Origin: Phoenix dactylifera
Taxonomy: Eukaryota; Streptophyta; Magnoliopsida; Arecales; Arecaceae
Assembly (NCBI RefSeq): GCF_009389715.1
Contig: NC_052395.1
Coordinates: 3,596,001 to 3,660,000, forward strand
Length of the DNA stretch: 64,000 nucleotides
Direction of reading: 5' to 3'
Made by a program: the position numbers and the translations under genes. Below are positions 1 through 55,865 of the stretch, one piece after another. How positions within the stretch are numbered: the stretch's first letter is position 1; every line of letters starts with the position of its first letter. A model generated the notes under the pieces. The model was not told where the DNA came from. It did not search any database and saw only the letters and a program-made list of their open reading frames with translations.

Positions 1-1965
1 GAGGTGTGGCGGGTGCTGGAGAAACTGCACATCATATGTTGCCATAAATGCACGATAAGCACATAAAGATCAGTCACGGAATTAGTATGTTTATCATTTC
101 AACATTCTTCACTAAGAAGAGTACTTTTTGGATGTGCATGCTTTATAGGGGATGAATGTCTAGGCGGTGGAGGTGGTAATGAATGGAAAGGTTGAAGCTG
201 TGGTGCTCGTGGCTTTCCTGAGGCAGATGTCGAAGGAGAAAGTACAGGAGATTGAACAGGCCCTGTAGGAATGAGCATGATCAAAAACCAATAACAAGTA
301 GTATTATAAGGAAGGAGAAACATGTATTAGAATAAGAGTAGCAATTAGATGCACTTTAGTGGAAATTTATTTTGAGTAGATGGTAACATTATTGATGGGG
401 AAGGTGTAAGTCTATATGTTATTTAGTAAGGTTACAACCTTGAATATAGGGTAGTGGAGCATGATGCTCTCGATTATGCTTTGGGAGTACTGCTGGAGGA
501 TTTGAAGAAGCTGGAAAAAACACCTGCCTGTTATTAAAACTCAATGAGGGGTCAATATAATATTTTCAAGTATATTATTCCTACCTGGATTACGGGATTG
601 TGGAGGAGCAGATGAAGGGCTTCCGGTTCTTTGCCTACCTATCGGCTGGCGAAATGAAACTACAGGTGCTGGTGCAGGGCTGCGAAATATTCTTTGTATT
701 GGAGGTTGGGGATGTGAAGCGAAAGGAGAATGTACTGAATATGAGGGTCTACCAGCCTCATGTGGAGCAGGGCTTATAACAGGAAAAGAGCCTGTAGAAA
801 AGAATAGACATTGGATTAGTGTTTATAATTTCCCATTCAAACATTTTTCATGGAGAATATAAGTACCTTTTGTGTGCGAATAATTTTTGGGGATTAAAGG
901 ACTGGATATATCTTTTGGTGGTGCAGGAACTGGCATGCCATATCTCCCATAGTTGGCAGGAGGTGTCGCGGGTGCTGGAGAAACAGCAGGCTCTGCACAT
1001 CATATGTTGCCATAAATGCACTATAAGCACATAAAGATCAGTCACGGAATTGGTATGTTTATCATTTCAACATTTGTCACTAAGAAGAATACTTTTTGGA
1101 TGTGCATGGTTTTTAGGGGATGAATGTCTAGGCGGTGGAGGTGGTAATGAATGGAAAGGTTGAAGTTGTGGTGCCCGTGGCTTTCCTGAGGTAGATGCCA
1201 AAGGAGAAAGTACAGGAGATTGGACAGGCCCTGTAGGAATGAGCATGATCAAAAACCAATAACAAGTAGTATTATAAGAAAGGAGAAACATGTATTAGAA
1301 TAAGAGTAGCAATCAGATGCACTTAAGTATAAATTTATTTTGAGTAGATGGGTACATTATTGACAGGAAAGGTGTTAGTCTATATGTTATTTAATAAGGT
1401 TACAACCTTGGATATAGGGTAGTGGAGCATGATGCTCTCTATTATGCTTTGGGAGTACTGCTGGAGGATTTGAAGAAGCTGGAAAAAACACCTGTCTCTT
1501 ATTAAAACTCAATGAGGGATCAATATAACATTTTCAGGTATATTATTCCAACCTGGATTACGGGATTGTGGAGAAGGAGCAGATGCAGGGCTTCCGGTTC
1601 TTTGCCTAGTTGTCAGCTGGCGAAATGAAACTACAGGTGCTGGTGCAGTGCTGTGAAATATTCTTTGCACTGGAGGTTGGGGATGTGAAGCGAAAGGAGA
1701 ATCTATTGAATATGAGGGTCTACCAGCCTCATGTGGAGCAGGGCTTATAACAGGAAAAGAGCCTGTAGAAAAGATTAGACATTGGATTAGTATTTATAAC
1801 TTCTCATTCAAACATTTTCATGGAGGATATAAGTACCATTTTTGTGCGAATAATTTTGGGGGGATAAAGGGCTGGATATATCTTTTGGCGGTACAGGAAC
1901 TGGCATGCCATATCTCCCATAGTTAGCAGGAGGTGTGGTGGGTGCTGGAGAAACAGCAGGCCCTG
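1..1965 (-). repeat. Tandem duplication of a four-exon module (~970 bp)
   Basis: Two near-identical copies lie head to tail. Exons 1837-1962, 1553-1762, 1407-1478 and 1093-1230 match 867-992, 585-791, 439-510 and 125-262 at offsets of 968-971 bp, introns included. A third copy begins at the left edge (exon starting at 24) with a 9-base deletion next to its splice acceptor. Each module adds about 181 residues and is phase 1 at both ends. Confidence 0.9.
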
Positions 1966-4900
1966 CACATCATATGTTGCCATAAATGCACTATCAGCGT
2001 GTAAAGATCAATCACAGAATCAGTATGTTTATCATTTCAACATTCTTCACTAAGGAGAAAAGTACTTTTTGGATGTGAATAGTTTACAGGGGACAAATGT
2101 CTAGAAAATTCCTTTGGAGGTGCAGCAACCGGCATGCCATGCCCATTCTGAGGGGTTCCAGGAGAAGTAATTGATGTAGGAGAAATAGTAGACACTGAAC
2201 ATCATAGAATGTGCACGATCAATACATAAAAGATCCATCATGACAGTGGTCCTCTTCTTCTGACATCTTGTTTTTCACTGAGAAGAAGAATACCTTTGGG
2301 GAGTGAATGATTTACAGGGGACAAATGGCTGGATGATTCTGTTGACGGTGCAGCAACTGGCCTGTCATACCTATTCCCACGGTTGGCTGGAGAAGTGATT
2401 GATGTTGGAGAAATAGTAGGCCCTGCACGAGAAGTGATTGATGTTGGAGAAATAGTAGGCCCTGCACATCATATTTTGCCATAAGTGCAAAATGAATCTA
2501 AAGAACATCAGTCATGGACTTTGTCTGTTTCACTCTCATTCCAATATCTTTCACTAAAGGGAAGAATGAATACCTTTTGGATGTGAATAATTTACGGGAG
2601 ATAAATGGCTGGATGATTCTGTTGGAGTTGCAGCAACTGGCATGCCATGCCTGTTCTCATGGTTGGCCGGAGAAGTGATTGAAGTCGGAGAAATGGCAGG
2701 CCCTGTACATCATAAATCGCCACAAATGCGCAATGAATGTAAGGAAGATAAGTCATGGGCCTAGTCTGTTTAATTTTCTCATTCCAATATGTTTCACTAA
2801 AAAGAAGAAGGAATACCTTTTGGATGTGAATAGTTTACAGGGTATAAATTGCTGGATGAATCTGTTGGAGGTACAGCAACCGGCATGCGATACCTATTTC
2901 CATGATTAGCAGGAGAAGTGATTGATGTTGGAGAAACAGCAGGCACTGGACATCATATATTGCCGCAAATGAATATAGAGAAGATCAGTCATGGATTTAG
3001 TCTGTTTAGCTATCTCATTCCAGTATCTTTCGCTAAAAAGAAGAATGGATACCTTTTGTATGTGAATAAGTTAGAGGGGATAAATGCCTAGTTGATTCCT
3101 TTGGGGTGTAGCAACTGGCATGCTGTATCCATGCCCATGGATGGTAGGAAAAGTAATTGATGTTGGAGAAACAGCAGGTCCTACACAAAATATATTGCCA
3201 CAAATGCATGATCAACTTCAAAAAGACCAGACTTGGAATTAGTCACTTATATTTCAGATCCAGTATTTTTCTGCTAAGGAGAAAAATACCTTCAGGGAAT
3301 GGATATGGCACATCATTTGCTGGTGTCAAATGATTGGATAATTCCTTTGGTGGTGCAGCAGTAGGTGTGCCATATCCATTCCCATGAATGACAGGAAAAG
3401 AAATTGATTTGGGAGGAACATCTTGCCCTGCACATCATTCGTCACCATAAATGCATGATCAACTAAACTTAAAAGAACTATAAGCCACGTAACAGTCCAA
3501 GTTAACATGATACATTAAGCAAGAAATCCTGAAGGACCACTGAGATGCCAACAGAACATAGGTCATCTGGCTGGCTGGTTGGCTGGGAGGAGGAGGAGGA
3601 AGAAGAGAGTGTAAAACAGCTAAAATGCTTACACTTGAAATTTGTAGTAGGAGGATAGTAGGTGATTCAAGTGGAAATTTTCTTGGAGATAGTGAAACTT
3701 GTGCAGTAACATATATATCAGATTCATAAAAAATTGTCATTCATTGGCAACCAAGTGAATGTGTTATTAATTAGCCTTACCTTGTGTATGTGGTACTGGA
3801 ACTGGAGAATTACTATTGGTTGCTTTTTCATGAACCCCAGCCTCAGGCACTCCCATTCCAGCATGTGATAGTGGAGGGCTCATATAGGATGGAGAAGGAT
3901 CATGATCTGTAGAATGTAATTAAAAATCTGAATTCACTAATTCCGAGAACATTGTGGGAATAATTTATTGATGGAAATTTACCTTCCCAAACCGAAAAAG
4001 TTGGTGATATACCTTGTATAGATGGAGATATTATTACTGGTCCGTGTTTCGTAGTTACATGTTCAGGTGGAGCACTAGGCTGCATGAATGGTATCACTGC
4101 TGGGGTGGAAGGTGGTAAAACCTCAGGCGAAGGTGGCAAAACCTCAGGCTTAGGTGGCATTATCACTGGGGGATGCAAGACAGCTCCTAGTATATAAGAT
4201 TAACAGTTTAGCAAATTGTTTCAAGGAGAAACTCAATACATGATGAGTACAACAAGGCTACCTTCAGGGACCATTATTTGACTATGTGCATATTCACTTT
4301 GTGATTTTGGAAGATATGCAGGAGTAGGTCCTTTCTCTTTGACATGTACAAGTGCAGGCGATATGTCTGAAGGGAATAGATGAAACCCAGCATGAGAACA
4401 AAAGCACTTATATCCAATGTTATTATGTGGGAACTCAAATCAACTCAATCATAAATTTTAACCTGTACTTGGTGGTTCAAGCTGTGAAGGAATGGATGGA
4501 GCCAGCATGCTTGAGAGCTGAAGCTTCGTGTCCATGTCATTGGGTGGAGGCCCAGATGTTGCTGATAGCAGTGTTCTGTGAGCCCATGGATGTACATGTG
4601 ATGGTTTTGGTAGTTGCTGTACAAAATTTGAAATTGGACCTATAAAAGAAGTGTTAGTGTAAGCTCATAGCCATGCCGTGAAGGTAGACTAAAGTGTACT
4701 TCTAAACAATACAAATCAGACATATAGAGCCAACCATTTCCCATAATGTCACATGAAGTTGTTGTTAGAGCACTCACAGGGGAAACAGATCATATGCTAC
4801 TCAAATATGCATGTCATTGTAATTCTGAACAATGTTCGGAATACAATAAATGGTTAATCCACATTAGATGCAACTGCTACTAATTTAAGAAAAATTTGGT

Positions 4901-7900
4901 ATTCATCTATATGATAAATTTTAAGTATCCAAAGATAGGATCACTGACCAGAACCACTTTAGATTTCTTTTATTTTTCTTCACCCTGGTTTTTGTTTTCT
5001 TTTTCTTTGTTTTTGGTGGGGGGACAGGTGGGAGCTTCAGTAGCTCTAATTATTGAAGCAGCAACTTAGCGAAGATGAAAGATAAACATATGCAGACTAA
5101 GAGCTTTCGTTTCCATATTAAATCAAAAGACCAAGAATTTCTAAAATATAGCTCCTAGTTCTCCATAGTCTTTTTTCTCTATCTTTATCTTTCATCTTTT
5201 TTTAAAATTTATTTTCGATATGTGGTTTCACTTATTTATCTCATCATCTCATCACCTCGAAATGTGCATTTAGCATAACAGTAAGTAAGTTGGTGTGATT
5301 TAAAATATCAACTTAATTTTAGCATATTCATGCTGTAGTCATAAATTTCAATGAATAATAACTAAAAGTGATGCTATCCACTCTAGGAAGGAAAATAATA
5401 AATAAAAAGGTCTCATAGTATCAAAGAAATTAAAGGTCTATGCTTTGAAGTTTTAAATTCCATCGCTTGCTGCTTGCTTCTATTTGCCCTCACATAGGCA
5501 TCTCTCTCTAAGGGATATATGTGTATTAAAGGATGCAGAGATATGAAAGCATTAGAAAAGTCACATACACAGCCAATTGAAAAAGGCCACTATTAGCACG
5601 ATGTTAGCTTCTTCTCCAGATACAGACATATCTCCATAAAAACTTGTTGTCTATTGTCAGAATTAACAACTAAAAAGAAATCCTTGATAAAGCAGAGCAT
5701 AACACAAACTGCAGGACATTCTGTTAAAATAACTGACATTATATAGCAAAATTTGCAGCATGTTCTCAATACATCTAGTCATTAAAGTTCTGCATTAAGC
5801 CTATTAATTAAAGTGACAGAAAATTGAAAGACAGCGAAGATATTTTGCTTCCAATTTAAAGTGTAATGAGATAACTGTGTGATGTGGTGAGGAATGCTAG
5901 ATCTACTAGATCTACATTTTCTTGTGAAGTTGGAAGCCTAGACAAGGTGTGTACGCAACTAATTCACTTTGTAAGGGGACCTTGCATAATAGCTCATATA
6001 ACTTGCCAACACTTGGTGCATGCAACATATAGTAATGGGCTATATGTTTTTTAACATCCCATGTAGAATATATTTATCTGCACAACCACGTAGATATAGT
6101 GAACCAGGTAATCCAATTGACTGTGGAACAATGATTTCATTTCTTTTCATATAGTCTGGAGATTAACCGTTGCATAGCATATAAGAGCATTCTTCTTTTA
6201 ATGGTAATAGAGGAGTTGGATTTATCTAGTGAAACCAAGAACATTAATCATATCCATGAAGAAAGGGTTGGTATGTAAATGAAACATTCGTAAGATCTTT
6301 GCTGGTCAAAGACCTCATACAACATCTTATCTGTCATAAAGATCGTTTCTCTACCCATTTGACCTTTGCAACTCCTCTGCTGCCTTCCCCAAACACCATG
6401 ACAAACGATCAACCAAGTCATATATTTTTTCTGGATATATCAGATTATAACTTTCGATGATAAAAGCATCATCTAAGCATAGTTTTCTTGATGGAAAGGA
6501 TGGGCCATCTAGAGCAAGTCTGGATAAAGTGAATGCAGTTCAATGAGGTTTAGGATTAAATCTAGAAAATTTGAAACAGTTTCTTCCAAAAACAAAGCTT
6601 GCAGATGAATTGTCTTAAAATCGTGTAGATGTCTTGACAATTTTAATAACATGTTCTCTAAGAGTCTAAGAACTATCTAAAGAAAAATGTTTTCTGCTCT
6701 TTCAAACTATATGAGAAACTCAAATCACATAACTACCTCCTTTCTTTGCCTATATAAATTCGAATAAAAAATCATCAAGAAAAGTTCCCTTAGCTCTAAC
6801 CTGAGTTTTACAATCCATCACTTCCTCAACTCCAAATTAGAAAGGGAGGTAGCAGCAAGAAAAAGAAGAGTGAAAAACCCTCACAATTAAGTTATATCAC
6901 ATTCGCGCAATGTTTTTTTTCCCAAAAAGAAAAACATGACCCTGTCCAGTATTTCATCTAGAGTGAGCAAAGAAAGATATTATCACATATGCCATTCTTG
7001 ATATTAAGAATTTCACTTTGTTTACCAAAAACAATTTTAGTATCATTTTTTTATGGTCAGAGAAGGAGCTTTCACGCAAAAGAACAAAATGGAGCTTGCA
7101 AACACCAAGAAGAACAAAATCTAAAATGGTAATAAGAGACCATTTGCCACGAAGTTTTTCACTTGAAATGGTTAATGATCAACCTATTCTAACTCAGGTA
7201 CCTATCTTACCTTCCTCGAAGAATCAATGCTGGAAAAAAAAAACAACAAAAAGTGACCTATATAGGGAATATTTTTGCACCATACCACATGAAAAACGTC
7301 ATGGAATATAAGAAATGTATGAAAGTATAGAAGAAAGATCAGATGGCAAAAGCATCATTAAGCATACTTCTCTTGATGGAAAAAATGGGCCCTTTAGAGC
7401 AAGTCTGGATACTAGGTGAATGCAATTCAATGAAATTTAGGATTAAATCTAGAAAATTTGAACCATTTTCTTCTGAAAACAAAGCTTTCAGAATAATTGT
7501 CTCAAATTTCTGTAGATGTCTTGATGACTTTAATAACATGTTCTCTTCGAATAAAAGAACATTCTAAAGCAAATAGTTTTTTGTTGCTTCTTCTAATTTT
7601 TTTTTGCCCGCATAGATTCGAATCAAAAATCATCAAGAAACTCTCTCTAAGCCGTAACCTGAACTTTACAAAACATCTGTCCCTTTCCCGGATTCAAATG
7701 AGAAAGGGAGATGGCAGCAAGACAAAAGAAGGAGGAAATCCTCCCAAGTTTTGCTTGTTTTCATAAATAATATCACAGGTAAAGCATTCAAAACATATAA
7801 TTTTCAAACACTTCTGCTATGAATTGTTTTACCTATCGATCCATGGATGACCAGAAGAACAACCACGACGCAGAGAACCCATGGGCGAGGAGTCTTTCGC

Positions 7901-7911
7901 CATCGCCCCAT
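1..7911 (-). CDS. Receptor-like kinase, proline-rich ectodomain half (ALE2-like); kinase off window
   Basis: This is the 5' half of a plasma-membrane receptor-like kinase gene. Exon 1 (7833-7911) encodes a basic start followed by a hydrophobic run (WVLCVVVVLLVI), a clear signal peptide. I then trace coding exons at 4469-4639, 4262-4366, 3983-4186, 3781-3906, 3635-3697, 3290-3427, 3053-3180, 2817-2945, 2574-2702, 2294-2461, 2066-2194, 1837-1962, 1553-1762, 1407-1478, 1093-1230, 867-992, 585-791, 439-510, 125-262 and one running off the edge from 24. All have GT-AG borders and all junctions are phase 1. The product is rich in Pro and Ser, with repeats of the type PAVSP...PVAAPPKE...HLSPVNYSH. 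There is no kinase or membrane segment in the window, so the ALE2-like name rests on the signal peptide, the ectodomain style and the CwfJ neighbour. A PERK or another proline-rich wall protein is possible. Exon 3053-3180 carries a frameshift. Confidence 0.66.
2066..3430 (-). repeat. Tandem array of single exon-intron units (~240-280 bp)
   Basis: Six related exons (3290-3427, 3053-3180, 2817-2945, 2574-2702, 2294-2422/2461, 2066-2194) follow each other with short introns of similar sequence. Most are 129 nt (43 codons). The shared intron-exon text around the donor recurs about every 240-280 bp, which shows amplification of a single exon-intron unit. The copies are more diverged than the four-exon module, so this array is older. 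Confidence 0.85.
6461..6890. repeat. Direct repeat, copy 1 (intronic)
   Basis: This segment is matched with moderate divergence by 7344-7748, about 880 bp away in the same orientation. Shared landmarks include GGGCC(A/C)T, AGAGCAAGTCTGGATA and AAATCATCAAGAAA in the same order. The repeat has no terminal inverted repeats that I can see; its nature is unknown. Confidence 0.7.
7344..7748. repeat. Direct repeat, copy 2 (intronic)
   Basis: Second copy of the 6461-6890 repeat, same orientation, with scattered small indels. It ends close to the first exon of the receptor-kinase gene. A local segmental duplication inside the intron is the simplest reading. Confidence 0.7.
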
Positions 7912-12681: not shown

Positions 12682-12731
12682 CAAAGTCGGCAAACTGTAA
12701 AGTCGGGCAGCGGCACGATTTGCCGACTTTG
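12682..12731. promoter_or_regulatory. 13-bp perfect inverted repeat upstream of the CwfJ gene
   Basis: CAAAGTCGGCAAA at 12682-12694 is repeated as its exact reverse complement at 12719-12731, with a 24-bp spacer that holds a further AAAGTCGG. It ends 81 bp before the CwfJ start codon, in the leader or core promoter. It could be a paired regulatory site or an RNA hairpin. Confidence 0.4.
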
Positions 12732-12812
12732 TTTGCAAGATAGGTCCCGTCGCTTCTCTCGAATTGCATCCATCTCATCAGCTCCTCTCTTCCCCGCTCT
12801 CACATCCCCTCC

Positions 12813-15800
12813 ATGGCGACGATTTCAACTCCAAGAATCCTTTTCTGCGGCGACGTCCTCGGCCACCTACACCAGCTCTTCAAGCGAGTTCAGACGGTCT
12901 CTTCCTCCCCCTCCGATCCATCCTGTTACTAGGTTTCCTTCTCCCTTCGCTCCGGCCAAGATCGAAACCTAAAACCCTAAATTTTTTCGAATCTCTTGTT
13001 CAGGTGAACAAATCGAGCGGGCCCTTCGACGCCCTCTTCTGCGTCGGTCAGTTCTTCCCGGACTCCGCTGACCGCCCCGACGAGCTCTCCGACTACCTCG
13101 ACGGCCGCGCTGCCGTCCCCATCCCCACCTACTTCACCGGCGACTACGGCGTTGGCGCCGCGCGGTTCCTCTCTGCCGCCTCCAAGCTCCCCTCCAACCT
13201 CGGCTTCAAGACCGACGGCGTCCAGCTCTGCTCCAACCTCTACTGGCTCAAGGGCAGCGGCAAGTTCTCCCTCCACGGTCAGGGTCGCCTATCTCTCTGT
13301 CTCCCCGATGCCCTAGTTTTCTTGAATACATTGGACTGACTTACTTCTTCTTGTAACTCTAATCTCTCGCAATCTTGGATCATTAGATTATTTCTAACTT
13401 TAATCTCCTGTTTCTTTACTTGAATTATTAGGGTATTGCGCTTGATCATTAAAGTATCTGTAAGATTACAGGGTTATCGGTGGCTTATTTATCTGGTAGG
13501 CGTTCACAAGACGCTGGGGGCTATGGAGTGTACACCGAGGATGATGTTGATGCATTGAGAGCCCTGGCAGAAGAGCCGGGGATAGTTGATATGTTTTTGA
13601 CATATCCTTAATTCACTTTTTTTTTTTGTCAAGAAAAGGAGTAAATTTTACATGGATTTTTTTCTACCCACACTGATTCTTAAGGAATTCTGCTTGGCCT
13701 TTTTCCTTAATCATGTTTTACTAATGAATGGCCAAGTGGGGTCTCTAATGGAGCTGATACTTCCAATACTCCACCGGGTGTTTCAGATCCTTCAGGATAT
13801 GATCCCATTGTATCGGAATTAGTTGCAGAGATCAAGCCGAGGTAGGTCCCTTTTGAATATTAGCATTTATTTAATAGCACATTATGCATCTGTAGTCAGA
13901 CAAATTATTCCCGTAATTCAGACCTGTTAGGAGTAGTGGTATGCAATCTGCATGAGGTTTATCTGCGTCCCTCTGTTGGATGTCTTAAATCAATGTCCCC
14001 TTTCTCTTTTCTTTTCATATTGTTGTCTTATTTGGAGAATCAAGAATTGTGTACTTTAGGCACTTTTAGTATGTCAAGAATAAGATGTCAGTAGGCATTG
14101 TAGGATCTAGTTATGCATAATATAGCTATGAGGACAATTACCTCTTCTACTTGACTATGCTTGATTTGCTGTTATGTTCATTTGGTTCAAGCTTCATGAA
14201 CGAGATTCTTTTTATTCTTGGAGGTGGGCATTAATTCCAAGTTTGAACACTGGTTTATAGTTTAGAGGCTTATGAATGCTGTGTTGAATAAATTGTGGAA
14301 CTAACTGTTTGACAAGCATTGGAGTTTTATCTGACTTCGTATAGGATGATGCTGATGCTGGGGCCTGCTATCTATTTTCTGTAGGTATCATATTGCAGGT
14401 ACTAAAGGTGTATACTATGCACGTGAGCCCTATTGTAACAAAGAAGCTGAACACATTACCCGTTTTATTGGACTCGCGGCTGTAGGGAATAAAGAGAAAC
14501 AGGTCTAGTTGTTTTCTTAGCACAAGAACTGTACCTAAGCATTTAGTTTTTTATGATTTATGTTCCATGCTACATCTTTATTTTCTTTGCACTTTTTTAT
14601 TTTCGTATTTTGTACCTTTTTTAGGTAAATGTTACTTTGCTGTTTTTCAGAGTCAAATATTTATCTGAATTAATTATGTTCTACATCAAACAGAGGTGTC
14701 GCATTTTCTACATCAAACAGAGGTGTCATATCTCTGTCTGTGTTATCCGTCTCTCCATCTAAATTTATGCACACATACGCATATTCACATGCATGTATCA
14801 TATTTGATTGTAGACACACATTGCAAAAAATGATGTTTTGGCTCTTCATGCTGTTAGCTTATATGCTTTTTTGTGGAATGAGGATATCTCCTTTATAGAA
14901 AATAACTTCTCTTCCATTACTATTCTTTTCTGTTCCATGTTCTTTTGTAGAAATCCTTCTTTTTTGGCACTAACAAGTACTTACCCATCTTACACGAATT
15001 TTTTTTAAGTACACATTTTCAGGTTCAATTCATTTGCTTAATGTTTGTTATGGCAGTATGGCACTAGTCTCCAAAATTTTACCATGTATTTTTTTTTTTA
15101 AATTTGGAATACTGTATTGAAAGTTCAATTTTCAACAATGTTACAATATTGTCTTAACATTCATGTTATTCTGATGCTGTTTTTACTAACTAGAAAAGAA
15201 AAGAAAGGCTGTATAAGTTGTTGTATTTTGCTTTATGCTGCATTTTCTTAAATCAGTATTTGGTAGAGTTAGATTGTTCATCTTTATGTGATTATCAAAT
15301 GGTAAAGCTAAGATTTTTTTTTTCATTTGACTTTTTTCTATTATTCTATGTTTTTTGTAATTCAATACTCCTATCAGCCATGCTTGTAGTTTTAAATTTA
15401 AATATTAGCTAATTTTATAGAACTGAATTATGTGAATTTCATTGGTCCCAACTGTCTTTAAGAAATGACATCTTGTGTGAAAGTTCTTGAAATCAGTGGT
15501 TCGTACTCATTAAATGGGATACTATATTTCTGACTTTCACAGTTCTACATGTTACATAATATGACAATAATGCAAATGCAGGTGTTGAAATAGTCAAATT
15601 TTGCTGATAGTTCCTATTAAGAAGTAAAATTTTTGTTCATGTTAATCTTATTGCATTGATCTGACTATAGCTTTTAGGCATTATATAACTGTTTGTATGC
15701 CATACATGCTTCCCAGAAGTTTATTCATGCGATTTCTCCTACTCCAGCATCTACGATGTCAACTGCTGAGATTCGCACAAGACCACCAAACACCACCTTA

Positions 15801-18800
15801 TCACCATATATCATTGCAGAGATAACCAGTCCTGCAAGAGAAGCTACTAAACGTCCTGCCAATAGTGATATTGATACGCAATACTGGCGATTTGATGTTT
15901 CAAAGAGGCAAAAACGGGGAGGGGCAGGTGGGGATAAATTGTGCTTCAAGTTTACATCTTCAGGATCCTGTTCTCGAGGGGAGAAATGTAATTATCGACA
16001 CGATGCGGATGCGAGGGACCAATATCTAAAAAATGTATGCTTTGATTTTCTTAACAAAGGAAAATGTGAACGAGGTTCTGATTGCAATTTTAACCACAGC
16101 CTCTCTGACGATGGGGCTAGTTTCTCTCAGAATGCAAAATCTCATAGGTAAGTTAAGTACTTTGTGAAATATGTTTTATATTTTTTCCTCAATAAAGTAC
16201 TGTTGGCTTCTCAACACGTACAATGGGTCAATCTCCTTACAAGCCAGTGTTTGATGATTTAGACCATATCTCACATATACCAGATGGAGAACCATGACTT
16301 CCATAGTTTCAGTGTTCTTTTATGTAATTTTTTGTATGAGTTCTGGATGCGTCCATTTTGCTGATGCTCCCTTTGGATATTAACCTTCAATGTCGTGATT
16401 TTGTCAACTTTTAGTGATCGGAAGAGCTCAGGGAAAAATTGTTGGTTCTGCTTGTCAAGCCCAAATGTTGAGTCACACCTCGTAATAAGCATAGGAGAAA
16501 GTTACTACTGCACACTTGCTAAGGGCGCGCTTGTGCAGAACCATGTACTGCTGGTACCAATTGAGCACTGCCCTAATACTCTTATGATGCCTTCAGATAC
16601 AGACATGGAGCTTGAAAAATATAAAAATGCTCTCAATGTGTATTACAAAAACCAGGCAAAGGAAGTTGTCTTTTTTGAGTGGATATTTCAACACAGTCCT
16701 CATGCTAACCTTCAGGTAGGAAGGATTTCTCCTCGAGGATTTAATAATTACGTATTATATAGCCATAAATTAACAGAGTTAGAGCTTGTCTCTTTTATAA
16801 GATCTATTTGATTTTTTTTTTCTTCTAATTCATTAACTTGCATTGCTATCTTATCTTTAATATGTCTCGATTGCATAAAAAATGAACCGACAAGAATTCC
16901 AGAGTAGCTTCTTAAAAGGCACGCATCAACAAAGAATCGGGCTCTTTTTTGCTTTGACTAAAAGCTGTAGCTGCAGCTAGCCTATTAATTGTAGCTAATA
17001 CCAACTTTTCTTGATGTTTCCCGAGTTTTAGAATGCAAATCTCTCTCTCTCTTGTAACTTATGGTCTTGATGAATACATCTGCTTTATGATTTTTGTATG
17101 TTACTGCAACAATATATTTTTCTAATAAATGTTTTCCTAATAAAGAATTTCATTACCAATGTGGAAACTGTGAATGCTGTGTTAGTTTGATCTATGATTA
17201 TTTCATAATCAGTATTGTATGTCCTGAAAGCTGGCTGGGTCCAATATGCATTAGGCCTTTGGATCGTCAAACAGATAGCCACACATCTTGCATCGCACCT
17301 TGAGATGTGGCCTCAAGTAGAGCCGATGAGAGGCGCTGCATATGTGCAGTGCTTTCTTAGCATGCAAGAGCACCATGTACGCCAATGCTGCGGTTGATGA
17401 TCAAAAGGTCCAATGCATGACGATCCTACTAGTTGCATGTTGTGAGTTACTTTGTTTGTTGATTAATATTCTTGCAAATGTTCTGAACAGGCTGTTCCCA
17501 TTCCATTATCTAAAGCATCCAATGTTCAGCGGATTTTCAATTTAGCTGCCAAGAAATTAGGATTTGAATTTGCAGTGGTGAACCCAGGTATGTTGTTCGT
17601 GAAATGTCCTTATGTTTATCTGTGCATAGATGCTATAGTAGACATGGGTAGAATGATAATACCATCGAACAAAGGGAAGTATTGGAATTTCAGTGATACA
17701 TATTCATGATAAACGGTTTAAATTATTTGCTTAGGATTTGAAGTAGATCGTTTTTTGCATTGTTGATGATACCCTGTTTTCACTATTAGAAAATGGTGTT
17801 AACTTTCATGTCAGACAGTCAGTGTCAAAATTTAGGTTTCCTTTTCCCATGCTGGTGTGGAATTGTTAGTTTAGGCACATGTCATATATGTAACTTTGAC
17901 TCTCATTTGTAAATTTCCTCTAACATCTTCAGATTTTTAATCATCCTGGTTCTGCATCAATTCTGTTTGATATGCCTTTAACCATGTGGTTTGGATGGTT
18001 TGACAAACTTTGAATGGCACATTATATTTTCCTAGGTCTGATAAATAGTCATTGGAAGAGAAACCATGGCAAATGTGGGATTTATATAGCTTACAAGACA
18101 GAAGCTGAATGATGATTTCAAATTTGTTTAAGCTCACACCTCCATTAAAATGTATTTTTTAAAAAAGAACTGATGAGCACGAGCAAACTATTGCTATCTG
18201 CAAATGCATCAGATTATAGCTTGAATGCCATAATTTAGTTATGATCTTTCTGACATACCTTCTCTGAATATCTCTGCTATCTGTCCCCCTGTTATGAATT
18301 GGTGGGGGAGAGGTCCTTGAGCAACTTTCTGAACTCTGTTTTCTCAGTTGAAATGCACAGATGTTTTATATAAAATGGACCAAAAGGGCTTCTCTAATTT
18401 GCAAGTTTTGTCAAAATCTTTAGCATTCTTCGACATGCAACATTGATAATCTCTTGATCCTTTTGCAGACAATGATTCTAGTGAAGGTAGAAAATTATTG
18501 AGGTCTCAATTTGATGGCAAATCAAGTTTATTTTATGTAGAACTCCCTGAAGGTACAATACTGTTGCATCTTGTTGATGACAAAGAGAAGTTCCCAGTCC
18601 AGTTTGGGCGTGAGGTAATTTCTGAACAGTTCATTCTTGATCCTTGAGTTATTTGTTTCTTGTCTCTTGGAATGACATAGGCTGGACCCCTAAACCTAAA
18701 AGCTTATCATGTTAGATCTGATTGTAGCTTCCAATACTCTGCCAGCCATGATCATTGTCGTTTCATTGAGATGTTAAAATTGTTCGAAATTTTACAGGTG

Positions 18801-29926: not shown

Positions 29927-31255
29927 ATGGCAAGCACTGGAGAGAACAAATCACGAAACCCCACACAAGGAAAAGCTAAAATCCTGGCGCTTGGCAAAGC
30001 CTTCCCTCACCAACTAGTCATGCAGGATTTCCTCGTAGATGGCTATTTCAAGAACACAAAATGCGATGACCCTGAGCTCAAGCAGAGGCTGACTCGACTT
30101 TGTAATCCAAGATTCATGGCTCCTCAGCTTCTTCTTCTCTATTTTATTACTGCTAATAATATATATGTTGTTTCTCCTAACTCAAGTTGATGCGAGTTAT
30201 TTCTATAGCAAAGTACGTAGGAACTAAGAGTTGCATGCCTTCTTTGGATCGTAGGCAAGACAACCACAGTCAAAACAAGATACGTGGTCATGTCCGAGGA
30301 GATCTTGAGGAACTACCCGGAACTGGCAGCGGAAGGCCTCCCCACGGTGAAGCAACGCTTGGAGATATCCAACAAGGCGGTCACGCAAATGGCCGTGGAA
30401 GCCTCACTGTCGTGCATCAAGGCACTTGGGAGGCCCCTCTCCGCCGTCACCCACCTGGTCTACGTCTCGTCCAGCGAGGCCCGCTTCCCCGGAGGTGACC
30501 TCCACCTCGCCCTCGGCCTCGGGCTCAGCCCCGACGTCCGTCGCATCATGCTCTCCTTCACCGGTTGCTCGGGAGGTGTCGCCGGCCTCCGCGTCGCCAA
30601 GGACTTAGCCGAGAACAACCCCGGCAGCCGCGTGCTGCTAGCCACATCCGAGACCACCATCGTGGGGTTTCGACCCCCGAGCGCCAGCCGGCCCTACGAC
30701 CTGGTCGGCGCCGCGCTTTTTGGTGACGGAGCAGGGGCTGCGATCCTCGGCGTCGATCCGATACCGGGCGTCGAGACTGCCTTGTTCGAATTGCATTCTG
30801 CGGCCCAGCAGTACCTCCCGGGCACCGAGAAGACCATCGACGGGCGGCTCACCGAGGAGGGGATAAATTTTCGTCTAGGAAGGGAGCTCCCACAGGTCAT
30901 TGAGGACCACGTTGAGGCGTTCTGCAAGAAGTTGATGAGAGAAGGTAGGGAAGGAGGTGAGGATGCCGAGAACAATGAGATGTTTTGGGCGGTTCATCCC
31001 GGTGGGCCGGCGATATTGAGCAAGGTGGAGAGTAGGCTGGAGTTGTGGCCTGATAAGTTGAATGCCAGCAGGAAGGCATTGAGGGATTATGGAAATGCCA
31101 GCAGCAACACTATCGTGTATGTCTTGAACTACATGGTGGAGGAGAGCAGGAAGAGAAGGGAGAAGGGAGAGAAGGATTGCGAGTGGGGTCTTATACTTGC
31201 CTTTGGGCCTGGTGTTACCTTCGAGGGGATTCTGGCAAGGAACTTGGTGGCTTGA
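29927..31255 (+). CDS. LAP5: Type III polyketide synthase B (LAP5/PKSB), 391 aa
   Basis: This is an anther-type chalcone-synthase-like enzyme. In the family it condenses hydroxy-fatty-acyl-CoA with malonyl-CoA to alkylpyrones, precursors of pollen-wall sporopollenin, in tapetum cells. Exons 29927-30101 and 30255-31255 join in phase 1 to 392 codons including the stop. The single intron splits the conserved cysteine codon of RLCKTTT, as is usual for this superfamily. The catalytic triad is present: Cys163 (FTGCSGG), His306 (AVHPGGP) and Asn339 (DYGNASSN). The C-terminal GFGPG-type loop reads AFGPGVTFEG. The N-terminus ILALGKAFPHQLVMQ and the FRPPSASRPYDLVG region point to the LAP5/PKSB branch and not LAP6 or true CHS. 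Exon 2 is GC rich compared with its surroundings, normal for monocot genes. It looks intact. Tapetum expression is known for the family, not read from this promoter. Confidence 0.95.
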
Positions 31256-44628: not shown

Positions 44629-45581
44629 CACTAAAGCCAATTGGTCATATATCTTAGGCCCATCTTCTCAAGGTGGGCTTCAGTCTTTTGCTGACTCAGT
44701 TGCTTAGTGAACGGGTCTGCCACGTTATCCGCGGAGTCTACTCTCTGCACCTGTACATCATAGTCGCGTATGAAATGGAAGCGCCGCTCTATGTGCTTGG
44801 ACTTCTAATGAGACCATGGCTCCATAGCTAGTGCTATGGTGCCAATATTTATCGCAGTAAAGTGTTATGGCATCTAATGACATTACACCTAACTCTGCAA
44901 TTAACTTTTAATCAGAAGGTTTCCACTGCACCCTTAGATACGGCTTAACATTTAGCTTCTAAGGTAGAATCTATAATGATCGGTTGTTTGGAACTCTTCC
45001 AATTTACTGAACCACAATTGCACATATTCTGATGTAGACTTTCTATCATCAATATGTGTGCATCCTTCTACCTTCAACTCTGATCTTCTCCCAAAGACCA
45101 AGAACATGTCCTTAGTTCTTCTCAAGTACTTAAGACTGTTCTTTCACAGCTATCCAGTGCTTCTTGCCTGGATCCGACTGATATCTGCTTGTGACACTCA
45201 CAGCAAGAGCTATATCAGGTTGTGTACACAGCATGGCATACATGAGGCTTCCCATTGCCGATGCATAGGGAATCTTGCTCATGTGTTGAATCTCTTCAGC
45301 ACCTCCTCTATGTACATCTTCTGTGAAAGGCCAAGCATTCTTTTAGATCTATCTCTATAGACCTTTATTTCCAAAATATAGGATGCTTTCCAAAGGTCTT
45401 TCATGGAGAATTCTTTTGACAACCAGACCTTGACCGAGGTTAGCATGGGAATATCATTCCCAATCAGGAGAATGTCATCTACGTACAGTACGAGAAAAAC
45501 GACAGCACTCCCACTAACCCTTTTTGTAAACACACGGTTCCTCTTCGTTTTTGATGAAATCAAATGTTTTGATTGCGTCAT
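44629..45581 (-). pseudogene. Copia RT end and RNase H remnant
   Basis: After the frameshift, FLVLYVDDILLIGND, LSKEFSMKDL and related RT residues are still readable to about 45279. From there to the polypurine tract, RNase H pieces (PYASAMGSLMYAMLCTQPD, SKHIERRFHFIRDYDVQ, DSADNVADPFTKQLS) survive in several frames with stops and small deletions, some involving the active-site region. The 3' coding part is heavily decayed although the LTRs are fresh. Confidence 0.85.
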
Positions 45582-48468
45582 CGAAACGAGTGTTCCAACT
45601 CCGAGATGCTTGCTTTAGTCCATAGATGGACCTTTGCAGCTTGCAGACCTTGTGATCTCCATCACTGGAAGTGAAACCCAAAGGCTGTTCCATATAGATA
45701 TCTTCATCAAGATATCCATTCAGGAAAGCAGTTTTCACATCCATCTGCCAGATTTCATAATCATGAAATGCTGCAATGGCAAGCAATGTTCGGATGGATT
45801 TTAGCATGGCTACAGGTGAAAAGGTCTCCTGATAGTCAATGCCTTCGCGCTGACTATACCCTTTCGCCACAAGCCTTGCCTTATAGGTCTCTACCTCTCC
45901 ATCCGAACCTATTTTCCTTTTGTAGATCCATTTGCATCCAATAGGTACAATACCTTCTGGTGGATCTACTAAGGTCCAGACTTGGTTGGAATGCATGGAG
46001 TCTATCTCTGACTTCATAGCTTTCAGCCATTTCTCGGAATCGATATCAGATATCGCCTCGTTGTAGGTTTTGGGATCCTGTATGTGATCCCTATCTCCCA
46101 CTAGGAACATTTCCTCGGTATCCTCTTCTACTATACCTAAGTATCTATCGGGAGGATGGGAGACCCTACTAGATCTACGAGGTGGTCGAGGGACATCGTG
46201 TACTGGCTCTGTATGAATGGGTTCAATAGGATCCATGACTCGTTGCTTTTCAGAGACTTTCTCTTCAAGCTCAATTTTCCTCCCACTGCCTCTATCAAGG
46301 ATAAACTGATTTTCCAAGAAGATGGCATGACGGCTCACAAACACATTGTGATCCTCTGAGACGTAAAAATTGTATCCTAATGACTCTTTAGGATATCCTA
46401 TAAAACGAGCACTTATGGTCCTAGCCTCTAACTTGTCCGCCTGTAGTCGCTTGACGTGGGCCGGACACCCCCAAATCTTGAGATGACCCAGACTTGGTTT
46501 CTTACCATGCCATATCTCATACGGTGTGGTAGGAACGGATTTAGAGGGAACTCTATTCAATAAATAAATCGCTGTGAGTAAGGCATCTCCCCAAAGGAAC
46601 ATAGGTAAATCAGTGAAGCTCATCATGGACCTGACCATATCCAATAGGGTCCGATTCCTCCTCTCTGACACCCCGTTGAGTTGAGGTGTACCCGGAGGTG
46701 TCCATTGTGAGACTATGCCGTTTTCTTTGAGATAGTCCCGGAATTCCCCACTAAGGTATTCTCCTTCTCGATCTGATCGAAGGGCTTTAAGAGGTTTTCC
46801 AGTTTGTTTTTCTACTTCATTCTTGAACTCTTTGAACTTTTCAAAGGATTCAGACTTGTGTCTCATAAGATACACATACCCATACCGTGAATAATCATCG
46901 ATAAAGGTAATGAAGTATGAATAACGTCCCCTGGCTAGCACATCGAATGGGCCACATACATCTGTATGTACTAGGGTAAGTATTTCGGTGGTCCTCTCCC
47001 CATGTCCTACAAAGGGCAGTCTAGCCATCTTTCCTTGAAGACAGGACTCGCAAACTGGATATGACTCGGAAGTCAATGAGCCTAAAAGCCCATCTTTATC
47101 CATTTTGTTCATTCTGTCCTCTCCAATATGGCCAAGCCTGAGGTGCCACAAATACCTTTGGTTTATCTCATCTCTGGATCTTTTGGATCCTTTGGCACTC
47201 ACTTCTTGCTCGGTAACATTCACAGATACATCCATATGTAAATGATAGAGACTGTTAATCATGAAACCACGTGCGACTATTTTATTTCTTAAATAAATAG
47301 AACAGCAGTCTTTGTCAAATGTAAAAACATGACCTTCCTGTGCTAGACATGAAACAGAAATCAAATTTCTGCTAGCAGCAGGTACATAATAGCAGTCTCT
47401 AAGTGATAAACTAAATCCAGACGGTAGTCGCAGATGGTAGGTGCCCACAGCCACAGCAGCAACTTTTGCCCCGTTGCCAACCCGAAGGGTTACCGCACCT
47501 TCCGCCAGCCTTCTACTTTCCTTTAGACCCTGCATGGTAGTGCACAAATGAGCACTAGAACCAGAATCTATAACCCAACTAGAAGTAGAAGAAACCGTTA
47601 GATTAGTTTCAATAATGAGCAAGTCTATACCTTCTGAAGGTGTGTCACCTTTCTTGTTCTTCAGGCTCTCGAGGTATGAAGGACAGTTTCTCTTCCAGTG
47701 GCCTTCGACATTGCAGTGGAAACATTTTCCTTTGTCGTTAGCCTTTTTCTTTTGAACTTCCTTCTTTGGCTTCTTGTCTTTCTTCTGCTTCTTTGCAGGC
47801 TTCTTTTTCTTCCAAGTAGACTTTCTCTTGGAACCAGAAGTCAACTCAGCAGCGAGGACATTGCCCCTTGAACCTTTCAAGGCTCCCTCAGCAGTTACCA
47901 ACATGTTGATTAGTTCAGTCTTAGTGCATTCAATCTTATTCATGTGGTAGTTTACTATAAACTGACCAAATGAATCAGGAAGTGACTGTAGGATCAAATC
48001 CACTTGCAATTCCTTGTGCATGTCCATACCGAGCTTCTCAAGCTCCTCTAGGTCCTTGATCATGGTCAGACCGTGATCATGGACAGACTGCCCCTCGCGC
48101 ATCTTCGCTTTGAAAAGCCTCTTGGACACTTCAAAACGAGCTGTGCGACTTTGCTCACCATACAACTCTTGCAGGTGTGCCAGTATGTCCCTAGCAGTCT
48201 TTATATTTTCATGCTGGCATTGGAGTTCATTAGACATAGATGCCATCATATAGCATTTTACTCTAATGTCATCATCCAACCACTTTTTATGCATCTCACG
48301 CTGAACATCAGTGGGACGTGCTGGTAATGTGGGGATATCTGAATCGAGTATGTAGCCTATCTTCTCACAGTCCAAAACTATTTTGAGATTTCTAAGCCAG
48401 TCCTTGTAATTGGTTCCGGTCAGTCGGTTGGTCTCAAGAATACGGGTCAAAGGGTTTGAAGCCAACAT
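45514..48468 (-). CDS. Copia gag-pol polyprotein, frame cut in the reverse transcriptase
   Basis: 984 codons. Gag (1-250) is followed by a CCHC knuckle ([14 protein letters not shown], residues 249-262), the aspartic protease ([10 protein letters not shown], about 298-306), the integrase zinc finger (H...H...CESC), core ([30 protein letters not shown]) and then RT up to [21 protein letters not shown] and [10 protein letters not shown]. It ends just before the RT catalytic site in CVYKKG because of an extra base in a G/C run at 45518-45520. The RT catalytic YVDDILL follows in another frame at 45279-45581. So this copy cannot make its own RT as one protein. Confidence 0.93.
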
Positions 48469-50010
48469 TGTATCTGCAGAGAGTAAAGATTCTAGTTAGA
48501 CTTTTGTACTTGATCCTAATCTGTCCTAAGGTCTTTTAGAACAAATTGTGACTCCCACTATTTTCTCGAATTCCTCACACTCCCCTGGTAGGAAAACGGA
48601 AATCCCACACGACTAGGGTTTCTAGTGGGTACTGCGGTCCCACCAATTTACATGCCACCTCACCTAACAGTTATTGGTGACACATAGATGGATGAGTGTA
48701 CAACTCTTGTACAATGCTTCTCAAGCATGTTGCAGTGCAACTTGGTCTCTAAGCCATGAAGACCTCACCTAACAGTTATTGGTCTCATTTCTTAGTTAAG
48801 TCAGACCCACTGTATAACCGTAGGAATAAAGTCGTCATTGGGTCCTCACCTAACAGTTATTGGTGCCCAACCCCACCTTTACCCTACAACATCTCATGTC
48901 TATAGAGAGGTCCAGCCCCCCAATGCAACTTGACCACTGTATCCAGCCGAGACAAGTCAACATCAGAAAGGCCTTAGCAGCTCTACTACAGTGGAAGACC
49001 TATTGACTTAATATTGGTTAATCAGGTCTTAGTGTTTGCAACTTGAGCCTTTCATAAGAGGTAATCGAACAATTGGCCAGGTAAGCAGGTGGGAGGCTCC
49101 CCTTACTCAGAGAGTAAGGTCCTAATTAAGTAACCACCTTTCATGCTTTCCTAGACACCAATTAGATCAATTAATCTAATATGACTTGCTCATGTCGGTT
49201 CACTCTCGACTTGATTGAGGAGGTTTTGATTTAGGTCTCAATTGGGTTTGCTACATCACATGTAGACCTATCTACCCGACTCTCATTCACATCACATGCA
49301 AACGGCGCATTGCAGGCAGTTATAATCGCAGCAATAATTAAAGCTAAACTTTAACTAGGTGATGATCATGGATTCTAATTAGGTCGTATTACAAGCACAT
49401 GCACATCAATTGATCAAGTGGTCTTCAACTCTTGAATTGGTTCCAAGCCTCCTTGATTCGATCCTTGATCAACCCTTGATCCCATCGCCATCAACCGCTT
49501 GGATCACCTTTCATCTCATGCCTTTGCTTCAACTTGATCGTTGATGTACATCACATCACAGAAATACAACCAGATGTAAAATAAAAATAAAAATAAATTA
49601 CATCTTCTTTTAGGAGGCACGCAGGCCTCTCAAAATATCAAATAAGATGCATGCAAGCATCTGAAAAATTACATGACATCGCAGATCACATCGCAGGTCA
49701 TTACATTTGATACCAAAAGGGTTTGAATCCTATGATCATCACCGTATGCAACAATTATAATTTCAGATCTGAAAACTAACTGATTATATCATTACATAGG
49801 TCGCTGATCATGCTAATCATGATTCTAAACTTTGTAATCCCATTAACAATGCAATTAGAATCATCTTTTTATCACATAAAAATCAGCATGTAAAAAATCA
49901 GCACCCCTGAAAAATCTGCATGCAGAATTTTTCAGCATGCATGATCATTTAATTTTCAGATCTAATATGCCTTTAAATATTTAATTCTTACCTTAATCTA
50001 CGAAGCCTAG

Positions 50011-50023: not shown

Positions 50024-52351
50024 TGTTGGGAACCCGCCCATGCCGCTGATATTTCAATAATTTTTCAGATGGCAGCGGAATCGGCATGCACGGGTTCGAC
50101 GTTCATCACATGAACATTGTTTCGAGACCTTTCGTAATTAGGTAGGAATTAAAACTTTTAAAATTATTAGGAAGATCAAATCTTCACCTTGCGCGGGTAG
50201 ATGATCACCGCAAATCTGAATTCGTGGTTTTGGAAGAGGGTTCGCTTGAAGCCGTTCAAACGTCCGGCCTCTACGGGTATCCACACGAAGCAGGATCCGA
50301 TCCAAGCTCTCTATCTCACCGGGGTGCTAGCTCCCTTGCAGAGATAGCTTTGATGGCTGATGTCCTCTCTTTCAATCAACTCTTGATTGCACTTGAGAGG
50401 AGGAAGAAGAAGGATGAAGAAGAGGAAGAAGATCAAATCCCTTCGCAGCTTTCTTCTCTTCACACGCGCTGAAGCCAAGGAAGAAGACCAAGAGGAGGGA
50501 GACGCCTCCTCTTCTTTTCCCCTTGCTGATGGCGGCTGAACCAAGGAGAGATGGAGAGGGGGTGGCCACGTGATGAAGAGGAGAAAGGGTCATCTAGGGC
50601 GCCGGCCCTAGTCCTCCTTTAATAAGGATGAAGGGCTCCTACAAGTTAGGAGCCTTGACAACTTTCCAAGAGGGGGCGCCGGCCCCCTCTCTCTTCATGT
50701 CGCACCTAATCAAGTGGAGAGGGGCTGATGCCCCTCTTACTTGGTTAGCCTAATCCTCTTCCAAAGAGGATTAGGTCCCTCTTTCATGGTTTAATCCTAA
50801 TCTAATTAGGATTGGCCAAATTGGGTTTAATCTATGCTAGTCCTAATCCAATTAGGACTTGAATGAACCATGACTCAATTGAACTCTTCAATCCTAATCC
50901 AATTAGGAGTCATGTTGATTCATTAGATTAATAATTAATTTAGACTTAAGGAATCCTAATCTAATTAGGATGTATTTAATTTTAGTCCTAATCCAATTAG
51001 GACTCTATTTGAATCCGAAGTCCTAATCTAATTAGGATTTCTAGGAATCCTACTCCAAGTAGGAATCCTATTTTAATTCAAAATTCCTAATCTCATTAGG
51101 ATTGTAGGAATCCTATTCCAAGTAGGAATTCCAATCCTACTCCAACTAGGATTCCCAGCCCTAATCCAATTAGGACTCTAGGAATCCTACCCGAAGTAGG
51201 ATTTGTGTTTAAGTCTAATTAATTAATTCCCTTTGTTCCTTCTTCAACTTTTATCAATCAAATTGATTTCTTGTGATTCCTAATCACGATTTCAACCATC
51301 GGATCGGTCAATACTTCTAGTGTGTGTGACCCCATAGGTTCTATTCTGACTGGTAGTGAGATATATTGTGATCTCTATCACTATATCATTGAAAACTCCT
51401 TTCAATGGGTTGGAACGATTCCAACTCAACTCATTAGGGTTTATCGATCATCAAGATAATCTCTATGAGTCCCACCATCCACCAGTGACACCTAGCAGCA
51501 TGTAGTGGCTACCCAGCAGAATGGAATGATGAACCTCTAGGTGCAGTTAACATGTGATACAGTCCTACTATCGTGGATCCCTACAGGACGGAGGTCATGG
51601 ACAACTCGTCAAACCCCATCGTCTGTCATATGTCAAGATTTATTCGACTTGAGTTCGATAGTGGAAAACTCTTTCTCCACTTTACTGCCCTGGCCAAGGT
51701 CTTAGAACTCAGTCTAACAAATCACATAGGATCACTCCTCTTCTATCAAGGTCGATAGATTCCTTATAGGTGCATACCCTACTCCTACAGTGAACCTACT
51801 GCAGCCAATCTACACTGCATGGACCCATATGGCTAGAGACCATGTATGTGTGCAGTCAAACTACAATAACCTCACTGTGAGTAGCCGAAGCACCGCAGGT
51901 CAAAGGACCAGTCACACTACTGCAACATCAAGCAAGTCACTGACGAGTGGATAGACATCCAAGTGACTTCTTGTCTTGGTCACGCTCAGTACCCTTGTTC
52001 TCTAACAAGCACCTGCACTATCACTTCAGTGTCCCTACACTGTGGACTCAAGTCTCGTCCATCCAAAAGGAAAGTGATCTGTGCACTGATCGGATCAATC
52101 ACCGTCCTCGTGATGATCCATTGATCAGGAGCATTTAGAAATTAATCACCAATGATACATGGCTTAAATTCTCAACTCTTGAGAATATGTATCATCATCT
52201 TATTAATTTCTTGGACGATTCATAGACACATAAACAATATGAATGAAAAGACGCCTTTTATTTATTCAATAATAAATAGTCAAGTACAAAATTATGTTCC
52301 TAGAATCAACAATGTGTCAGCCAATTTGGCTTCTAGGGCATACATCTAACA
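50024..52351 (-). repeat. Copia 5' LTR
   Basis: 2328 bp, unusually long for a Copia LTR. It contains the array of dyad-symmetric TCCTAATC-type motifs at about 50790-51205. Identical in length to the 3' LTR. Confidence 0.96.
50790..51205. repeat. Array of dyad-symmetric 16-17-bp motifs in the Copia 5' LTR
   Basis: Exact counterpart of 43055-43470 at offset 7735. Confidence 0.9.
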
Positions 52352-52356
52352 CCAGC

Positions 52357-54889: not shown

Positions 54890-54908
54890 GTTCCGGCCGA
54901 TCTGGTCT

Positions 54909-55865
54909 TTAAAAAATTTGGCTGACCAGTCTCTGATAGGTGGCCCCAGCGTTTTTCAGGCCAAAGGGCATCACCTTGTAGCAGTAGGTGCCCTTATCGG
55001 TGATGAAGGCCGTCTTTTCCTCGTCTTCTGGCGCCATTCGAATTTGATTGTACCCTGAAAAGGCGTCCATAAAAGTTAGCAGCTGGTGTCCTGAAGTGGA
55101 GTCGACGAGCTGGTCGATGCTCGGGAGGGGGAAGCTGTCTTTCGGGCAGGCCTTGTTTAGGTCGGTGTAGTCCACGCACATACGCCACTTCCCGTTGGCC
55201 TTCTTTACGAGGACTACGTTGGCGAGCCAATCCGGGTAGGAGACCTCCCGGATGAAGCCGGCCCCGAGGAGTTTGTCCACCTCCTCAGCCGCAACTCGTT
55301 GTCGTTCCGGGGCGGAGCCCCTTTTCTTCTGCTTTACAGGCCTGCTGGTTGGCCTCACCTGGAGTCGGTGGACCATGACCTCAGGGTCAATTCCTGGCAC
55401 GTCCGCGGGCGACCAGGCGAAGACGTCAGCGTTGTCCCGCAGGAAGCTGACGAGGCGATCCCTCTCGTGGGCACCGAGGCCGGAGCCGACCTGCACGGTT
55501 AGCTCGGAAAAATTTTCTTGTAGTGGGATTTGAATAAGGAGCTCACCGGGCTCTACTTGCTTCTTCCAGAGGGTGTCCCTCGCATCGAGGGTTTCTATGG
55601 GCAGCGAAGGGCCCATCGGGTGGTCCGGCGCCTCGGTCAGTTGCTTTGCTGTGTGGGCTGCCATGTAGCATTGCTTGGCGATCAGCTGGTCTCCGCGGAC
55701 CTCGCCTACTCCTTGGCCGGTGGAGAACCGCACGAGCAAATGGCGAGTTGAAACCACGGCTCGAAGGGCGTTTAGCCCAGGGCGCCCAAGGATGGCGTTA
55801 TAGACCGAGGGCAGACGGACCACCAGGAAGTCCATCCTCACGGTGCTCTCCCGGGGGGGCGAGGC
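54909..55865 (-). pseudogene. Gypsy protease end and reverse transcriptase, first part
   Basis: This frame continues the polyprotein after the first frameshift: the protease end VYNAILGRPGLN, a linker with DVFAWSPADVPGI, then reverse transcriptase motifs WRMCVDYTDLNKACPKD, LLTFMDAFSGYNQI and KVMPFGLKNAGATYQ. It ends in SQIF followed by a stop, caused by a run of six A/T bases at 54911-54916 that is one base too long to stay in frame with the following YVDDMLV part. Confidence 0.88.

Follow-up and report, generated by a model that had tools for sequence, protein, structure and literature searches.

The window, a stretch of 64 kb from the Phoenix dactylifera contig NC_052395.1 (C4:3596001-3660000), contains at its left end 20 predicted coding exons (E1-E20, minus strand) of a gene whose predicted product is a receptor kinase of the ALE2 type. 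The signal-peptide exon, E1, is followed downstream by 19 coding exons (E2-E20) that reach the left edge, where E20 is cut. The surrounding assembly has a size of 773 Mb in 2391 contigs, and the paralogs discussed below were searched within this same genome. The initial annotation had placed the ectodomain of a receptor kinase, built from at least 20 phase-1 exons, at positions 1..4639: the number of exons is borne out by the model and E2-E20 lie inside this range, the signal-peptide exon lies outside it (Table 1).

The predicted splice borders are AG/GT, and all in-window junctions are in phase 1 in the model without E7, as the same annotation had stated. It had also singled out E7 as the only internal exon that is not a multiple of three; this proved correct, 17 of the 18 complete internal exons (E2-E19) being multiples of three and E7 having 128 nucleotides (nt). 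The E1-E2 intron is 3193 nt long and the remaining in-window introns 74-353 nt; the shortest of these are slightly longer than the plant minimum of 70-73 nt cited in PMC1626468. Without E7, the window part of the protein comprises 832 residues and no stop; when E7 is included, an in-frame stop follows residue 312.

E2-E5 are single-copy exons, E6-E11 are copies of a module named B (one unit being an exon of ~129 nt with an intron of ~110 nt), and E12-E15, E16-E19 and E20-E23 form three cassettes, each with the order B'-P-Q-R. The array exons measure 72-210 nt, a tentative one (E22x, see below) excepted. When the exon types were compared, E6, E9 and E12 were strongly linked, and E15 was weakly linked to E9. 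The uniform phase is largely inherited, the majority of the exons having been copied from one of four types (B, P, Q, R); E2-E5 and the flank exons E24-E26 are likewise phase 1-1. Because the array exons except E7 are phase 1-1, the gain, loss or skipping of one of them would change the length of the protein and keep the frame. The earlier statement that any exon could be skipped or added in frame holds to this extent, the inclusion of E7 truncating the protein. At E10, a perfect 39-bp duplication crosses the acceptor, hence two acceptors 39 nt apart are available, a frame-neutral choice. The acceptors of the B-type exons are poor in pyrimidines (0.35-0.59, the other nine that were measured having 0.53-0.82). 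This would be compatible with optional inclusion and is a lead rather than evidence of isoforms.

Table 1. Predicted exons and related features at the left end of the window (positions from low to high).
Feature	Position	Strand	Remarks
E1, signal-peptide exon (MGRWRKTPRPWVLCVVVVLLVIHGSI)	7833-7911	-	Ends in phase 1; C11 counterpart 80% over 25 aa
E2, single-copy ectodomain exon	4463-4639	-	Phase 1-1
E3, single-copy ectodomain exon	4262-4366	-	Phase 1-1; C11 counterpart has a stop
E4, single-copy ectodomain exon	3983-4186	-	Phase 1-1; C11 match short only
E5, single-copy ectodomain exon	3781-3906	-	Phase 1-1
E6, B-type repeat exon	3290-3427	-	Groups with the intact C11 B exon, tree support 100/99
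E7, B-type repeat exon	3053-3180	-	128 nt, one base short; stop if included
E8, B-type repeat exon	2817-2945	-	
E9, B-type repeat exon	2574-2702	-	
E10, B-type repeat exon	2294-2461	-	Two possible acceptors: start 2461 or 2422
39-bp tandem duplication	2390-2467	+	Spans the E10 acceptor; 2.0 copies, 100% match
E11, B-type repeat exon	2066-2194	-	3' end and intron like those of E15 and E19
Cassette 1 (E12-E15)	1093-1962	-	
E12 (B')	1837-1962	-	
E13 (P)	1553-1762	-	
E14 (Q)	1407-1478	-	
E15 (R)	1093-1230	-	B-like 3' end
Cassette 2 (E16-E19)	125-992	-	
E16 (B')	867-992	-	
E17 (P)	585-791	-	
E18 (Q)	439-510	-	
E19 (R)	125-262	-	B-like 3' end
E20 start, first exon of cassette 3	1-24	-	Runs past the left edge

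That these exons are more than chance open frames is indicated by their stop codons: in the phase-1 frame, the 18 internal exons hold a single one (in E7) in 823 codons, compared with 23 in 840 codons and 38 in 823 for the other two frames. When the 17 exons other than E7 (798 codons) were simulated 2000 times with a first-order Markov model, no copy was free of stops and the mean was 27.2. An AG..GT exon-chaining script, whose length limits were set with the exon model already in view, retrieved 11 exons at its first setting with a score of 981; shuffled sequence (180 runs) did not exceed 264, nor did other tiles (72 runs) exceed 228. When the setting was loosened after this first result, exactly E2-E6 and E8-E19 were returned (score 1389); the maxima of the controls were 512 for shuffled sequence (180 runs) and 677 for the remaining tiles of the window (72 runs), and the other two phases of the same strand reached 305 and the opposite strand 364.

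The gene continues in the left flank with the remainder of cassette 3 (E20-E23), an exon encoding an ALE2_N domain (E24), a membrane helix (E25) and the kinase with the stop codon (E26-E28). The kinase, which the initial annotation had expected to the left of position 1, is thus present. Without E7, the whole coding sequence specifies 1642 residues and has one terminal stop; 26 of its 27 junctions are phase 1, and the other one, in the kinase between GTFG and Y, is phase 2. A Pfam search up to E = 0.01 matched ALE2_N (PF23180, residues 1015-1133, E = 4.9e-56, 188.4 bits against a cut-off of 27) and two kinase families only, among them PK_Tyr_Ser-Thr (PF07714, residues 1269-1537, E = 2.6e-49); leucine-rich repeats were not among these matches in the ectodomain. 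The kinase strings GEGGFG, VAIK, HRD, DFG and APE occur in this order, and the signal peptide (in E1) and a single membrane helix, from residue ~1171, were read from hydrophobic stretches. As ALE2_N, the membrane helix and the kinase continue the same frame leftward, the gene is assigned, by its predicted protein, to the ALE2-type receptor kinases. The ectodomain of more than 850 residues claimed earlier is not attained by the window part, and is exceeded by the whole mature ectodomain of ~1144 residues, if 26 residues are allowed for the signal peptide. The 979 residues before the ALE2_N exon contain 22% Pro and 15% Ser, and no Cys. Concerning the fold of ALE2_N, a Pfam search with five paralog domains up to E = 10, in which most matches above ~0.1 were dropped, returned ALE2_N only, and a profile of the five domains matched no PDB sequence up to E = 10.

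The array could alternatively belong to a separate gene for a secreted Pro/Ser-rich wall protein, extensin- or arabinogalactan-like and devoid of a kinase, and Pfam is indeed silent on the window part of the protein alone. Against this, the same frame runs on through ALE2_N, the helix and the kinase by phase-1 joins, the Ser-Pro3-5 motif is absent from the 979 residues, and two paralogs, C11 and C8, match the same exon types in the same order before ALE2_N. A separate wall-protein gene is hence very improbable.

In the genome, a search for ALE2_N yielded five strong loci (C4, the gene discussed here, as well as C8, C11, C191 and C17) and six weaker rows. B is the one module of the four that was searched genome-wide: a two-unit B peptide gave 11 matches, nine of them in the C4 gene and a single one in each of C8 and C11. 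The exon order of C4 recurs in C11, where tblastn detects one B exon and one B'-P-Q-R cassette instead of the three cassettes of C4; in C8, it detects one copy each of B, P, Q and R, in the same order before ALE2_N. For C8, the chaining script agrees in outline. No match to the exons before E24 was found by tblastn in the stretches around the C191 and C17 loci. In C11, a 110-bp stretch matches, at 72%, the end of E10 of C4, its intron and the start of E11, and is a relic of deleted B exons. E3 of C11 contains a stop and little is left of E4, and E24-E28 are open over the 631 codons taken.

The relative ages of these changes can be read from synonymous divergence (dS, per-site rate; pS, proportion of sites). 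The B units E8-E11 differ among themselves by a pS of 0.26-0.44, vs. a dS of 0.20-0.25 between C4 and C11: since the units differ more from each other than C4 does from C11, the B array predates the C4-C11 split and has shrunk in C11. The branching order of E7-E11 is not resolved in the tree. The cassettes of C4 show a dS of 0.07-0.13 among themselves and of 0.22-0.27 to C11, and in the tree, the three B' exons of C4 stand together (92/86), nested in a group with the B' exon of C11 (98/94). The lower dS and the tree both indicate that the threefold cassette of C4 arose later than the split. The claim that the repeat number varies by exon gain is thereby supported, whole exons being gained and lost between paralogs. 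Two neighbours in the window gave no match in the stretches around the C8, C11, C191 and C17 loci, so that no particular duplication is claimed for the C4-C11 pair. ALE2_N also matches at C773 and at C8:7.68-7.69 Mb; these matches contain internal stops or are split into two parts ~8 kb apart, and are perhaps decayed or interrupted copies.

The cassettes themselves bear traces of their origin. Cassettes 1 and 2 are identical at 510 of 543 exon positions (93.9%) and 396 of 424 intron positions (93.4%), and the exon differences show no bias by codon position (12/10/11). The 3' ends of E15 and E19 resemble that of E11, as do the introns that follow them. The 3' end of E23 (PPPPPN) differs, and as the R exons of C11 and C8 share it, it is the original R end. 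The R/B chimerism of E15 and E19 is most likely the footprint that would be expected of unequal crossing-over between E11 and R ends. Furthermore, the Q-R intron of cassettes 1 and 2 lacks 101 nt that cassette 3 has; the corresponding C11 intron (276 nt) is like that of cassette 3, which makes this a loss shared by cassettes 1 and 2. Private indels are also seen: 9 nt are absent at the start of E20, and one codon is absent from E17. These indels and the 101 nt argue against an assembly artefact, in which one locus would have been falsely repeated. A similarity of 91-94% between cassette exons, in an assembly of so many contigs, might favour such an error; the exon copies nevertheless differ by 6-9% (the comparisons with cassette 3 including its unlike R end), and no additional B-repeat locus was present among the 18 genome candidates scored. 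An artefact is therefore very improbable.

Between C4 and C11, selection was compared for seven ectodomain exon pairs (E2, E5, E6 and cassette 3), ALE2_N and the kinase exons E26-E27. The ratio of nonsynonymous to synonymous rates (dN/dS) is 0.82, 0.43 and 0.23, respectively. The proportion of nonsynonymous differences (pN) is 0.145 in the ectodomain vs. 0.057 in ALE2_N and kinase together (odds ratio 2.8, p = 1.7e-8); synonymous rates are alike in the two parts (p = 0.90). The ectodomain sequence is weakly constrained, and ALE2_N and the kinase are normally constrained. In the phase-1 frame, the older B units have a pN/pS of 0.38 and 0.51 for two sets of pairs (p = 0.0002 and 0.009), compared with 1.18-1.44 in the other frames.

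Taken together, the window very probably holds the 5' portion of a gene for an ALE2-type receptor-like kinase, whose ectodomain would have lengthened as entire phase-1 exons, along with their introns, were duplicated in tandem. Several points weigh against it. Every splice junction of the gene is predicted, and E7 breaks the frame: it may be a sequencing error, a dead exon or a poison exon. E22x, a stretch of 36 nt in cassette 3 left of the window, is a tentative exon, and E22x-like stretches in C11 and C8 are not clearly spliceable. On C11, the chaining script missed B, P and Q, as longer false exons were preferred, and their presence there rests on tblastn. The E3 acceptor and the E5 donor of C11 look lost by eye; for this reason, C11 may be a copy in partial decay and not a functional short version. 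Being degenerate in C11, E3 and E4 were left out of the dN/dS comparison. Divergence is as rapid in the cassette exons as in the introns between them, and has no codon-position bias, so that no strong selection is seen on these exons. Introns read as coding give a pN/pS of 0.40-0.78; on short stretches, this measure is thus by itself a weak proof of coding, and more weight is given to the open frames and to homology.

Some of the same observations would also suit a neutral, drifting exon minisatellite, perhaps in a decaying gene, where changes in length would be functionless and E7 would be a first sign of loss: the equal divergence of cassette exons and introns, the stop in E7, the ectodomain dN/dS and the splice sites apparently missing from C11. 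It is opposed by the constraint on ALE2_N and kinase, by the 17 of 18 internal exons in the window that are open and in frame, and by the shortage of amino-acid changes in the older B exons, though introns come into the same range. Such neutral drift is possible, and we regard it as rather unlikely.

If the ectodomain grew by exon duplication, a B-type exon would first have been multiplied with its intron. Later, the B'-P-Q-R cassette would have been tripled. The most likely agent is unequal crossing-over at exon ends and introns that resemble each other, and this would also have left the chimeric R/B exons E15 and E19. E7 is presumably left out of the working mRNA. The result would be a Pro/Ser-rich, cysteine-free spacer of ~980 residues placed before the constrained ALE2_N/kinase module: long, flexible, facing the wall and probably O-glycosylated, for which length and composition would count over exact sequence. 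More speculatively, the array of this developmental receptor might act as a variable-number tandem repeat whose units are exons, where recombination between similar phase-1 exon-intron units, together with skipping, would keep yielding alleles and isoforms of differing ectodomain length, tuning the spanning or sensing of the wall; the odds are against it. Membrane mucins of animals vary in length in a similar way. The locus provides a clear plant case of a receptor whose outer part grows or shrinks by whole exons without damage to the frame: one paralog has three copies of the cassette, its sister retains a relic of exon loss, and in both a constrained kinase follows. The role of ectodomain length in wall-facing receptors becomes testable via alleles and isoforms at one locus.

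Other coding features were noted elsewhere in the window. On the plus strand, open frames starting ~5 kb from the signal-peptide exon occupy 12701-16151, the frame at 15678-16151 having CCCH zinc fingers, and an exon of a type III polyketide synthase (chalcone/stilbene synthase family) lies at 30221-31255. Retrotransposon frames with Pfam domains are found on the minus strand, Ty1/copia-like at 45514-48495 and Ty3/gypsy-like at 52346-54955, the latter with adjoining G+C-rich frames to 57858. An ATPase-domain exon (HATPase_c, plus strand, 59730-60410) is taken by us to resemble the start of a DNA topoisomerase II gene. Rfam gave no match at the gathering score in the 64-kb window, and no tRNA was found in it.

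Among the closest known systems is ALE2 of Arabidopsis (ABNORMAL LEAF SHAPE 2, AT2G20300), where ALE2_N also adjoins the membrane helix and the kinase follows. The Pro-rich stretch of Arabidopsis ALE2 is short, unlike the ~980 residues of mostly multiplied Pro/Ser-rich exons before ALE2_N in the present gene. In a review (PMC10868138), ALE2 is assigned to the 'Extensin' type and linked to the development of integument, embryo sac and epidermis; with ACR4, it acts on protoderm-specific gene expression. By motif, the gene is unlike PERK or extensin-like kinases, being a Pro-rich receptor-kinase ectodomain without Ser-Pro3-5 and with ALE2_N.

A layout of phase-1 modules had been called seldom described for plant receptors by the initial annotation. 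The layout is present, symmetric exons of one phase differing in copy number between homologs, as in an exon-duplicated modular ectodomain; duplicated phase-symmetric exons are, however, already known from rice kinases with leucine-rich repeats (LRRs). Their exons, which encode one LRR each and are of 72 nt and phase 2, are ascribed to exon duplication and shuffling in PMC3050792. The two systems share an ectodomain of small, duplicated, phase-symmetric exons and differ in that the rice exons are phase 2, often 72 nt and leucine-rich, and those described here phase 1, 72-210 nt and Pro/Ser-rich. Set against the rice kinases, this gene also displays copy-specific gain and loss between paralogs.

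Modules bounded by phase-1 introns recall the extracellular proteins of animals. In animals, most such modules are folded domains that recur in different genes; unlike them, the modules here are of low complexity, and within the genome B was matched in this gene and its paralogs C8 and C11 only. According to PMC1626468, extracellular proteins often have modules flanked on both sides by phase-1 introns, and a phase-1 intron near the end of the signal peptide is ordinary in secreted proteins, those of plants included. No account of repeated ectodomain exons in ALE2 genes was found in the titles and abstract openings returned by searches of an open-access library. The modular-receptor interpretation of the initial annotation is partly supported. 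The novelty seems to lie in the combination of an ALE2-type receptor with a multiplied array of low-complexity phase-1 exons in which both gain and loss are visible between paralogs.

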